Origin: Candidatus Obscuribacterales bacterium
GTDB lineage: Bacteria > Cyanobacteriota > Vampirovibrionia > Obscuribacterales > Obscuribacteraceae
Assembly: GCA_021732025.1 (NCBI GenBank)
Contig: JAKFVU010000027.1
Location: 1 to 64,000 of the forward strand
Direction of reading: 5' to 3'
DNA length: 64,000 nt
Shown here: piece by piece, positions 27,537 to 30,792 of the stretch
How the letters are laid out: every line of letters begins with the position of its first letter
Numbering within the stretch: position 1 is the stretch's first letter
Notes under the pieces: model-generated
Databases searched by the model: none
What the model saw: only the letters and a program-made list of their open reading frames with translations
What the model was told of the DNA's origin: nothing
Position numbers and translations under genes: made by a program

Positions 27537-27875
27537 TCAATGCTCCGAAAATTCTTTCATCACTTGGCCGTAGCGTTTACCAACGGCACCGCATACGATG
27601 TCGCACAGTTGATAGATAGTGCTGTCACCAATACTGTAGTAAACAAACAGACCCTGCCTACGCTTCTGCACAATGCCCTGTTCAGCGAGCACGGAGAGGT
27701 GTTTACTAACATTGGCTTGGCTCATGCCACTTAATTCGCAAAGTGCTTGCACTGATTGCTCGCTATTAAACAGATGCTGAAGTATCTGCAAGCGCGAAGC
27801 ATCTGAAAGGGCACGGAAGCGAGCAGCGACTATTTCGAGCGCTGGCCTCGATAGCGGTTTATTTTTGTCTTTCAC
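27537..27875 (-). CDS. ArsR/SmtB-family transcriptional repressor
   Basis: 112-residue winged-helix repressor: RFRALSDASRLQILQHL, then the recognition helix MSQANVSKHLSVL, and the wing KRRQGLFVYYSI. Cysteines at 46 (helix 2 region) and 91/95 (CDIVC, last helix) could sense a metal, sulfide or persulfide. Their spacing does not match the Cys pair of BigR/SqrR, so I do not assign it to that group. It is divergent from the rhodanese gene with a dyad-symmetric operator candidate between them, which suggests it controls that gene and itself in response to sulfur or arsenic stress. Confidence 0.85.
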   Translation of the reverse strand: MKDKNKPLSRPALEIVAARFRALSDASRLQILQHLFNSEQSVQALCELSGMSQANVSKHLSVLAEQGIVQKRRQGLFVYYSIGDSTIYQLCDIVCGAVGKRYGQVMKEFSEH

Positions 27876-28035: not shown

Positions 28036-28623
28036 ATGTCAGAACAGTCAAATACCACTGCTTGTCAGCAGGTAGCTTGTGCCGATTTGTCTTCCAAAGT
28101 TTCTGAATCGGTGCTCTTGGATGTGCGTAGCCCGATTGAGTTCGAAGTTGAGCACATTGCCAACTCTATTAACGTGCCATTGAATGAGCTTGAGACTCGC
28201 TTCGAAGAAGTGCCGAGAAAAGGACAGCTGGTCGTTATATGTAGATCAGGCAAGCGCGCTGAGCGGGGCGCCTATACCCTACTTGGTCGCGGTTTCCAGC
28301 CACAAGTTCTTGCGGGAGGCATAGTTGCTTGGCGTAAAGCAGGCTTGCCGCTCAAAGAAGGCAAGAAAATGCTACCGATTGAGCGCCAGATTCAGTTGGT
28401 TGTTGGTGTTGGCGTGTTAACCGGGGTGCTTTTGGGCGTTTTAGTCAATCCATGGTTTCTCGTTATTCCCGCATTCTTTGGTGCCGGGCTGACTTTTGCT
28501 GGGCTTTCTGGCACCTGTGCCTTGGGGCTTCTATTGATGGAAGCACCCTGGAATCAGCTGCCACGTAGCGTCACTCCAGCTAAATGTGACGAGCCAAAGG
28601 CAAAAGGCGGCTGCTGTGGCTAG
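28036..28623 (+). CDS. Rhodanese with C-terminal DUF2892 membrane domain (YgaP-like)
   Basis: 195 residues, ATG with GAGGG 7 nt upstream. An N-terminal rhodanese domain (about 12-110) has LLDVRSPIEFEVEHI and the active-site loop VVICRSGKR, with the persulfide-carrying Cys69. The C-terminal part is two membrane helices of DUF2892 (about 120-165; PIERQIQLVVGVGVL, GLSGTCALGLLL, MEAPWN). The layout is that of E. coli YgaP, a membrane sulfurtransferase. The tail ends in GGCCG. It is divergent from the ArsR-type repressor and 63 nt upstream of the TGA-interrupted ORF, probably in one operon. Confidence 0.9.
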   Translation: MSEQSNTTACQQVACADLSSKVSESVLLDVRSPIEFEVEHIANSINVPLNELETRFEEVPRKGQLVVICRSGKRAERGAYTLLGRGFQPQVLAGGIVAWRKAGLPLKEGKKMLPIERQIQLVVGVGVLTGVLLGVLVNPWFLVIPAFFGAGLTFAGLSGTCALGLLLMEAPWNQLPRSVTPAKCDEPKAKGGCCG

Positions 28624-28686: not shown

Positions 28687-28911
28687 ATGAACGATCTGAT
28701 TTGGCTTGTGGGCTTCGTGCTCTTATACTTCGCCTTGCAACTTTATATATTGCCGAAACTCGGCATCCCTACCTGAATGTCCCGTAGCTGCTCGGTCGAG
28801 CAGTCAAAAACGAAAGGCAGTGAAGATGTTCAGACAGAAATTGTCCAGCAAGAAACTTCCCAACCAGAAACTATCCAACCAGAAACAGTGCCACCAGACT
28901 CAGTGCCATAA
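28687..28911 (+). CDS. Candidate small membrane selenoprotein (in-frame TGA at codon 30)
   Basis: The ATG at 28687 starts MNDLIWLVGFVLLYFALQLY, a single membrane helix, then ILPKLGIPT and a TGA at 28774-28776. The same frame then runs 44 codons to a TAA at 28909-28911, starting MSRSCSVEQS. If TGA is read as selenocysteine the product is 74 residues with a U-x4-C motif (U30, Cys35). The tail has pentapeptide repeats with conservative changes: QPETI, QPETV, PPDSV. A 6-bp hairpin with a GGTC loop sits 11 nt after the TGA. GGGG lies 10 nt before the ATG. The alternative is a 29-residue peptide plus a separate 44-residue ORF from the ATG at 28777. It follows the rhodanese gene. Confidence 0.6.
28788..28803 (+). 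promoter_or_regulatory. Bacterial SECIS-like hairpin
   Basis: CTGCTC (28788-28793) and GAGCAG (28798-28803) form a perfect stem closing the tetraloop GGTC (28794-28797); a G-T pair can extend it. Counting the T of TGA as 1, the loop is at 21-24. In E. coli fdhF the SECIS loop GGUC is at 22-25. A G in the first two loop positions is the known rule for bacterial SECIS elements. The bulged U of the fdhF element is not obvious here. Confidence 0.55.
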
Positions 28912-28991: not shown

Positions 28992-30047
28992 TTAACATTG
29001 ATTCTCTGGAATTCCCTTTTCGTACCATTTTTTGCTGCTGTTGACTATTTTTACGACTGCTAGCATTAAAGGCACTTCAATCAATACACCAACCACAGTG
29101 GCTAGAGCGGCTCCTGAGTTGAAGCCAAATAGACTTATTGCGGTTGCTACAGCAAGTTCAAAGAAATTGCTGGCGCCAATTAGGGCTGATGGACCGGCGA
29201 CACAATGGGCGACACCGAACTGCTTGTTTAGCAAGTAAGCCAATGTCGAATTGAGAAAAACTTGGATGAGAATTGGTACAGCCAACATCGCTATTACTAG
29301 TGGTTGTTTGAGAATTGCTTCTCCCTGAAAAGCAAATAGCAAAATAAGTGTGGTCAGCAGCGCTGCAAGTGAGACGGGGTGAAGAAATTCAAGGGTCTTG
29401 TCAAAAGTGCTCTGCCCTTGCTTTAGCAGTATCTTTCGCCACAATTGAGCGATCAGAACTGGTATCACAATGTAGAGTCCAACCGATATCAGCAATGTGT
29501 CCCATGGAACGGTGATGGCCGATAAACCCAGTAAGAGACCTACTATTGGAGCAAAGGCGAAAATCATAATTAGGTCGTTGACAGCTACTTGTGAGAGCGT
29601 GAAGTAGGGGTCACCTTTGACCAGTTGGCTCCAGACAAATACCATGGCTGTGCACGGTGCTGCGGCTAACAGAATCAAGCCAGCTATATAGCTGTCGATT
29701 TGATCATGGGGAAGGTATGGTGCAAAAATGACGCGAATGAATATGTAAGCAAGAAAGGCCATGGAAAATGGCTTTACTGCCCAATTTATAAACAGCGTTA
29801 CCGCGATGCCTTTCCAGTGACCTTTGACTTGACCGAGGGCACTGAAGTCAATTTTTAAAAGCATCGGTACGATCATAAGCCAAATCAAGAAGCCAACAGG
29901 TATATTTACATTGGCGATCTCAAGTGAGCCGATTAGTTTCACCGGCCCGGGCAGCAGTTGCCCTAGGGCAATACCCGCACCGATGCAAAGAAAAACCCAG
30001 ACAGTGAGCCAACGCTCGAAGAAGCCTATACTAGGTTGCTCAACCAT
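28992..30047 (-). CDS. Arsenite efflux permease, ACR3 family
   Basis: 351 residues with about ten membrane helices. The family's conserved Cys is in AAAPCTAMVFVWS (Cys132). Other markers are FERWLTVWVFLCIGAGIALG at the start, WLMIVPMLLKIDFSAL, NWAVKPFSMAFLA and GASNFFELAVATAISL. It exports arsenite across the inner membrane. Start and arsC stop overlap as TAATG, so it is the last gene of arsR-arsC-acr3. Confidence 0.95.
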   Translation of the reverse strand: MVEQPSIGFFERWLTVWVFLCIGAGIALGQLLPGPVKLIGSLEIANVNIPVGFLIWLMIVPMLLKIDFSALGQVKGHWKGIAVTLFINWAVKPFSMAFLAYIFIRVIFAPYLPHDQIDSYIAGLILLAAAPCTAMVFVWSQLVKGDPYFTLSQVAVNDLIMIFAFAPIVGLLLGLSAITVPWDTLLISVGLYIVIPVLIAQLWRKILLKQGQSTFDKTLEFLHPVSLAALLTTLILLFAFQGEAILKQPLVIAMLAVPILIQVFLNSTLAYLLNKQFGVAHCVAGPSALIGASNFFELAVATAISLFGFNSGAALATVVGVLIEVPLMLAVVKIVNSSKKWYEKGIPENQC

Positions 30048-30469
30048 TAGGTTGTCCTGCTGACTGACTGCACGCGAGCAACGTCTAGTTCTTCTACAAG
30101 ATTTTGCACTAGATTCTTCACCTGATCTCTTATTTCCCGAACTCGCTCAATTGGCTGCCCTTTTGGATCTTGCAAGGCCCAGTCGGTTCTCCTTAGCCCG
30201 GGAATCATTGGGCATGTTTCGCCACAGCCCATAGTAATGAGCATGTGGGCGTCAGCTGCTAGCTCATCGGTGAGCAGCTGCGGTTTTACTTGAGAGAGAT
30301 CGATACCTACTTCTTTCATGGTTTGCAGCACTTCTGCATGTACGGTGATACCGGGTTTGGTGCCAGCCGATTGTGCCTGAGCTTTGCTACTATCGCAATA
30401 TAAGTTGAAAAAGGCTGCAGCCATTTGTGAACGTCCAGCATTATGCACACAGGCGAAGATTACTTTCAT
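30047..30469 (-). CDS. arsC: Arsenate reductase, low-molecular-weight phosphatase type
   Basis: 140 residues. The phosphatase-like P-loop CVHNAGRSQMAAAF has the catalytic Cys7. The relay cysteines are in ITMGCGETCPMIPG (Cys82, Cys86) and the general acid is in ALQDPKG. It reduces arsenate to arsenite, usually with thioredoxin, supplying the substrate of the ACR3 pump encoded next. The start overlaps the arsR end by 4 nt, and the stop overlaps acr3. Confidence 0.95.
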   Translation of the reverse strand: MKVIFACVHNAGRSQMAAAFFNLYCDSSKAQAQSAGTKPGITVHAEVLQTMKEVGIDLSQVKPQLLTDELAADAHMLITMGCGETCPMIPGLRRTDWALQDPKGQPIERVREIRDQVKNLVQNLVEELDVARVQSVSRTT

Positions 30470-30792
30470 GGTTTTCTGTCCGTATTAATTTCGGTGCAGC
30501 AATTGTTTTTTCCCTCACAACAGTTTTCTAGAAGGAAATTGATGAGGCTTTGCATGGTGTCGTAGTTGGCACTGTAAATAATTAAGCGCCCTTCTCGACG
30601 GGATGATAGAAGGCCTGCTTGGCTAAGTTGTTCAAGGTGGTGTGACATAGTTGCCGGCGTTATGCCGAGTTGTGAGGCGATAGTGCCAGCAGGGAGACCC
30701 ATTTGTCCGCGTTGGACCAAAAGGCGGAAGACTTTTAGTCGCGATTCTTGGGAGAGAGCGCCAAAGGCGTTTAATACTGATTGTATTTCCAT
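30466..30792 (-). CDS. arsR: Arsenical-resistance repressor ArsR
   Basis: 108-residue winged-helix repressor: FGALSQESRLKVFRLLV, LPAGTIASQLGITPATMSHHL with the recognition helix, and SRREGRLIIYSANYD as the wing. As(III) is probably bound by the C-terminal cysteines in ENCCEGKNNCC. It heads the operon arsR-arsC-acr3 and should repress it without arsenite. The start codon lies inside a 16-bp palindrome in the promoter, and there is no SD, so translation is probably leaderless. Confidence 0.93.
   Translation of the reverse strand: MEIQSVLNAFGALSQESRLKVFRLLVQRGQMGLPAGTIASQLGITPATMSHHLEQLSQAGLLSSRREGRLIIYSANYDTMQSLINFLLENCCEGKNNCCTEINTDRKP

Follow-up and report, generated by a model that had tools for sequence, protein, structure and literature searches.

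The window, the whole 64,000-nucleotide stretch of Candidatus Obscuribacterales DNA that was analysed, contains a short reading frame with an in-frame TGA between a rhodanese gene and a cluster of arsenic genes. The features of this region are the following.

27537..27875, minus strand: ArsR/SmtB-family repressor, transcribed divergently from the rhodanese gene (NCBIfam HTH_metalloreg, 84.4 bits, cut-off 55)
28036..28623, plus strand: rhodanese with a YgaP-like membrane domain and a Cys-rich tail (Pfam Rhodanese, 57.8 bits; YgaP-like_TM, 27.6 bits)
28687..28911, plus strand: predicted selenoprotein gene, ATG to TAA with TGA as codon 30 (Sec30), 74 residues when TGA is translated as U
28690..28761, plus strand: codons of a predicted single membrane helix, residues 2–25 (helix in AlphaFold2; invariant residues in the alignment)
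28774..28776, plus strand: UGA codon, predicted selenocysteine 30 (UGA in 72 of 81 relatives)
28788..28803, plus strand: core of the predicted SECIS stem-loop, CTGCTC GGTC GAGCAG (six pairs, covariation, three phyla)
28789..28791, plus strand: Cys35 codon, candidate resolving cysteine (U-x4-C)
28992..30047, minus strand: ACR3 arsenite efflux transporter, convergent neighbour (TIGR00832, 374 bits, cut-off 283)
30047..30469, minus strand: arsenate reductase-like protein, ArsC (TIGR02689, 70 bits, below the curated cut-off)
30466..30792, minus strand: second ArsR-like repressor, of the arsenic cluster (an open reading frame that clusters with ArsR-like neighbours of relatives)

The reading frame at 28687–28911 comprises 29 codons beginning with the ATG, the TGA at 28774–28776, 44 more codons and the TAA, exactly the layout that an earlier note, made from the letters of the DNA, had described. 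Its translation is MNDLIWLVGFVLLYFALQLYILPKLGIPT-U-MSRSCSVEQSKTKG...PPDSVP, followed by the TAA, and its start codon aligns with the starts of the homologues. The AlphaFold2 model of the 74-residue protein consists of one helix, residues 2–25, with a mean pLDDT above 90 for residues 1–20 and a disordered remainder, in agreement with the single-helix membrane protein envisaged in that note. The redox-type spacing that the note had pointed to is present in the translation as U30-x4-C35, and the Cys35 codon lies within the SECIS stem. Across 81 aligned loci, the mean net charge is −0.7 before the helix and +1.3 after it, and in 74 of the 81 the net charge is more positive on the C side of the helix; by the positive-inside rule, this charge distribution predicts an N-out/C-in topology.

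Homologues were sought in 53 genomes of the order Obscuribacterales and by a pattern scan of genomes from 84,980 species that yielded 54 loci, including Myxococcota and Verrucomicrobiota. Matches, a few of them weak, were obtained in 36 of the 53 Obscuribacterales genomes, and nearly all good matches carry one in-frame TGA. When the phylum to which one of the myxobacterial genomes belongs was searched with a profile, 32 of 379 genomes were positive. The aligned family core reads YFA[LM]QL[WY]ILPK[LM]GIxT-U-MS[RK]SCSVEQ; the scan pattern itself accounts for part of the conservation of YFALQLWI in the genome-scan loci, and the profile search shows a looser stretch. Viral contigs held no relative of the 74-residue protein, and the plasmid matches, two weak ones from Nostoc (36–40% identity, E values of 3e-3 and 1), were judged spurious.

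At the position of Sec30, the 81 loci have UGA in 72 cases, a Cys codon in eight and an Arg codon in one. Q18, P23 and G26, at −12, −7 and −4 relative to this position, are invariant, and T29, at −1, is kept in 80 of 81 loci. A Cys at +5 is found in 61 loci; the roughly one-quarter without it belong mostly to one myxobacterial subgroup (“RRS”), in which a Cys often lies near the C terminus instead. The C-terminal tail is poorly conserved, and homology in it is nonetheless detectable. Cys at position 30, which the earlier note had regarded as decisive, occurs in two loci of the order (L171 and L189) and in seven of the Myxococcota (L201, L206, L207, L214, L255, L256 and L261), the count of eight in 81 being that of the tree set, to which L189 is additional. 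No relative with a simple end after KLGIPT was seen.

An ATG directly follows the TGA in the window and Met occupies this position in 66 of 81 relatives, an arrangement that would also suit a stop and restart, in which a membrane peptide of 29 residues would terminate at the UGA and coupled translation would start a 44-residue protein from the ATG beside it. In the other loci, however, the residue is Ala, Leu, Val, Ser or Thr, and the codon after the UGA is CTG in L208, L222 and L223; this variability removes the stop-and-restart reading. Moreover, the Cys forms fuse both halves, and such a reading leaves unexplained the covariation of the hairpin and the co-segregation with SelB described below. 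We consider it very improbable.

The hairpin downstream of the UGA has a 6-bp stem (28788–28793 paired with 28798–28803), extendable by one G-U pair, and a GGTC loop at 28794–28797; the stem begins 11 nt and the loop 17 nt after the TGA, as the earlier note had proposed for the stem. For the 44 nt that follow the TGA, the folding energy is −13.4 kcal/mol and the z-score −2.2. The published model of bacterial SECIS elements specifies a loop of 3–9 nt, a stem of 4–16 bp, a distance of 16–37 nt from the UGA, a G in the first two loop positions and an MFE of ≤ −7.5 (PMC13188914), and the window hairpin lies within all of these constraints.

Comparison of 32 distinct Obscuribacterales sequences shows standard pairs in 192 of 192 pair cells (100% paired), with changes on both sides in two pairs and six cells. 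None of 500 shuffles of this set reached the observed pairing, the number of both-side cells or the covariation score, and sliding the partner strand by one to three columns lowers the pairing to 20–54%. Some compensatory changes are synonymous on both sides, such as TGC/GAG to TGT/GAA in L185, L194 and L195. In an alignment of 48 sequences from three phyla, 15 of which were brought into register by eye, the six pairs are 92–100% formed with many pair types, and the next outward position is 35% formed. A second stem, CGCGTC-GGTC-GACGCG or CGCGCC-GGTC-GGCGCG, is found in Myxococcota; because the exchange of T-A for C-G turns Thr into Ala, the SECIS RNA appears to drive the protein sequence there. 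The myxobacterial Cys forms have no such hairpin. Per-sequence fold z-scores do not separate Sec from Cys forms (means of −1.56 and −1.46), so the case for a SECIS element rests on pair covariation rather than on energy. No Rfam family matched the element. Judged from their conservation in dozens of genomes, the combination of hairpin, UGA and downstream frame is beyond chance.

Variants of this arrangement occur in a few genomes. L171 and L189 are Cys (TGT) forms that retain the hairpin, with the loops GGTT and GGTC, respectively, in genomes with SelB; they look like recent Sec-to-Cys conversions, with UGU recoding as an alternative, and L189, which lies at a contig end, is possibly an assembly error. 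L221 (3114–3179), in a genome with SelB, has the Arg codon CGA in place of the Sec codon, and its frame stops seven codons later. Two or three paralogues per genome are found in G311, G339, G336 and G335, some of them outside the rhodanese operon, and contig C124 of G336 carries two selenoprotein copies 3 kb apart.

The genome assembly of the window (4.61 Mb, 85 contigs, 84% complete) contains a tRNA-Sec with the anticodon TCA (UCA), selA (531 bits) and selD (354 bits). Of the four sel genes that the earlier note had named for checking, three are thus present, whereas selB was not found in this 84%-complete assembly, yet SelB is present in all five other genomes of the genus. An initial suggestion from TIGR00475 that the whole genus lacks SelB was overturned by a profile built from the order's own SelBs. 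Outside the order, SelB is present in 12 of 13 genomes found through the UGA form versus none of four found through the Cys form, a split with a chance of about 0.002 (hypergeometric, ignoring phylogenetic dependence). Within the order, the UGA gene occurs in 31 of 45 genomes with Sec machinery versus one of eight without (Fisher p = 0.004, again ignoring phylogenetic dependence). One genome that is 75% complete (G331) has the UGA gene and no detected Sec machinery, and the UGA form L212 (G352) has a perfect GAGTC-GGTC-GACTC hairpin in a genome in which no SelB was found. Decoding of the UGA as another amino acid, through a reassigned code or a suppressor tRNA, is highly unlikely: homologues substitute Cys, never Trp or Gly (Arg once), tRNA-Sec(UCA), SelA and SelD are at hand, and the status of the UGA tracks SelB.

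The sequence that follows the UGA bears the marks of coding. Synonymous divergence is about halved across the SECIS element (pS of 0.39 versus 0.75), and the pN/pS of the tail is 0.40 in frame 0 versus 0.80 and 2.51 in the other frames, as calculated from 21 non-independent pairs with a frame-neutral filter, a filter on amino-acid identity being biased. Changes in the tail number 89, 37 and 99 at codon positions 1, 2 and 3, so few fall at second positions. From these substitution patterns, the tail is taken to evolve as protein in frame 0 under purifying selection. An ordinary truncated protein or a pseudogene, with the UGA as a true stop or a sequencing error, would accord with the missing selB of the window's assembly and with the poor conservation of the tail; the same UGA in dozens of independent assemblies, the in-frame selection beyond it and the SECIS element leave such an explanation virtually no chance. 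Decoding of the UGA as selenocysteine is very well supported by these comparisons, and we hold it highly probable that 28687–28911 encodes a selenoprotein with Sec at 28774–28776. The selenoprotein reading of the earlier note is thereby sustained by the conservation of UGA or Cys, the covariation of the SECIS element, the co-segregation with SelB, and the presence of tRNA-Sec, selA and selD.

The note had also surmised that the family is new. The 74-residue protein matched nothing in Pfam, NCBIfam 20.0 or the PDB, and scans of 30 and 32 family members against family models gave nothing near any cut-off. A 2026 catalogue lists 119 prokaryotic selenoprotein families (PMC13188914); its Table 1 has no fitting entry, those without a model having been compared by description only. 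A full-text literature search on selenoproteins of Melainabacteria, Obscuribacter and Myxococcota, with thin coverage of subscription papers and preprints, returned nothing on point. The small protein therefore appears, by these searches, to represent an uncatalogued selenoprotein family with a known kind of decoding, distributed among Obscuribacterales (Cyanobacteriota/Melainabacteria), Myxococcota and Verrucomicrobiota.

Its predicted decoding is reminiscent of that of E. coli fdhF, with an in-frame UGA, a loop that starts with GG 17 nt downstream, and tRNA-Sec, SelA, SelD and SelB in the lineage. As in other SECIS-dependent bacterial selenoproteins, Cys homologues occur where SelB is absent; unlike those proteins, it resembles no catalogued family and has no Trx fold or known domain. 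TsoB (NF045694), a rhodanese/DsbD fusion-like selenoprotein with the motif UxxxxU, has the same spacing (U-x4-U/C), and the rhodanese, DsbD membrane domain and ArsR-type regulators that are its partner domains are found near loci of the small protein. The TsoB model, however, has 572 positions, whereas Sec is here predicted on a separate single-helix protein, which does not match NF045694 and has no rhodanese/DsbD fusion architecture. Rhodanese and CoA-disulfide-reductase selenoproteins are included in Table 1 of PMC13188914; the same enzyme families are neighbours here, without an in-frame UGA, and it is the small protein that would carry the Sec.

The rhodanese gene lies on the same strand, 63 bp upstream of the selenoprotein gene, and the two likely form one operon, of which the divergent ArsR/SmtB repressor is the likely regulator. 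In 13 loci of the order, the window included, a rhodanese or a CoA-disulfide reductase–rhodanese fusion ends 24–97 bp upstream on the same strand, and in many loci an alpha/beta hydrolase gene lies downstream. Some myxobacterial Cys forms adjoin genes for thioredoxin and for a DsbD_TM–thioredoxin protein. In several loci of Verrucomicrobiota, a truncated globin gene precedes the family gene and is itself preceded by a gene that we take, from its sequence, to be argG. The wider Myxococcota have no conserved neighbour gene.

The proximity of ACR3, ArsC and ArsR in the window, together with ArsA near eight, ArsD near six and ACR3 near five related loci, might indicate an arsenic-specific selenoprotein, in which Sec30 and Cys35 bind As(III) or serve ArsC at the membrane and hand over to ACR3. 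Against this stand the Verrucomicrobiota members, beside which no arsenic genes were recognised, the many paralogues in the order that adjoin none, and the Myxococcota; we judge such a role unlikely. Because the neighbours differ by lineage, with none conserved in Myxococcota, we consider a general redox role whose coupling varies with the lineage more probable than a protein dedicated to arsenic.

The protein is probably a small membrane-tethered thiol/selenol redox protein. In the mechanism that we favor, tRNA-Sec(UCA) and SelB would enable the ribosome to read UGA 28774–28776 as selenocysteine, under the direction of the hairpin CUGCUC-GGUC-GAGCAG, whose stem starts 11 nt downstream. The resulting T-U-M-S-R-S-C motif would sit at the cytoplasmic surface of the membrane, where the flexible hydrophilic tail starts. 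The selenol would attack a substrate that is oxidised or persulfidated and located at the membrane or close to it, and Sec30 would then form a selenenylsulfide with Cys35. Regeneration of the selenol would fall to a thiol system of the cytoplasm: in this case the rhodanese/CoA-disulfide-reductase proteins, whose genes share the operon in many relatives, and in Cys-form relatives thioredoxin or a DsbD-type protein. In this order, the protein would be coupled to an ArsR-controlled sulfur/arsenic stress operon. We regard this sequence of selenol attack, Sec30–Cys35 selenenylsulfide and regeneration by a thiol system as the likeliest mechanism, with about an even chance of being right.

Placement of the Sec where a membrane-proximal tail begins, beside invariant P and G and a near-invariant T, as well as the lack of a conserved partner gene in Myxococcota, would also be consistent with a membrane-surface peroxidase, acting for example on lipid hydroperoxides, rather than with disulfide/persulfide exchange. 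A peroxidase is doubtful, since the AlphaFold2 model of one helix and a disordered tail contains no peroxidase fold or Trx-like domain, and the genes next to it in the order suggest thiol/persulfide exchange. Returning to the membrane-tethered redox protein, an architectural parallel is offered by SELENOK and SELENOS, eukaryotic single-pass membrane proteins with Sec in a flexible cytosolic tail; the likeness is one of working only, with no sequence relation claimed, and the decoding system and the position of Sec differ. Tentatively, and with somewhat less confidence than in the mechanism itself, the family could stand for a class of selenoproteins that is widespread among bacteria, spans the membrane once and has its Sec in a short, flexible tail. 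In Obscuribacterales, Myxococcota and Verrucomicrobiota, these proteins would serve as a selenol relay, tethered to the membrane, that connects thiol/persulfide enzymes of the cytoplasm with membrane substrates, and the SECIS element would fix much of the tail sequence.

The family occurs in most sampled Obscuribacterales genomes and in 32 of the 379 searched in one myxobacterial phylum. It lies outside Pfam and NCBIfam, and a standard gene caller is expected to truncate the gene to about 29 residues or to miss it. Its members would document the use of selenocysteine in non-photosynthetic relatives of cyanobacteria and link selenium to an ArsR-controlled rhodanese/CoA-disulfide-reductase/arsenic operon. 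At about 55–75 residues, they provide a very small model for comparing Sec with Cys at a membrane surface, with natural versions of both, and the SECIS elements of three phyla in one alignable family can be used for training and testing SECIS predictors.

Two further observations concern the Sec machinery of the order. In the genus of the window, the SelB proteins of G300, G301 and G298 (L152, L153 and L154) are 638–875 aa long and their profile match is broken near position 548, an apparent insertion between domains. In the Obscuribacterales genome G311, which also has a normal tRNA-Sec(UCA), a tRNA-Sec-shaped RNA that has the anticodon GCA (Cys) and a T preceding CCA is encoded at L303:714–809 (contig C17, 124713–124808, minus strand); inspection by eye of the open reading frames within about 6 kb revealed no selB or cysS. 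By its sequence features, this RNA fits the selC* tRNA-Cys described in a review whose list does not include the phylum of Obscuribacterales (PMC7609411).
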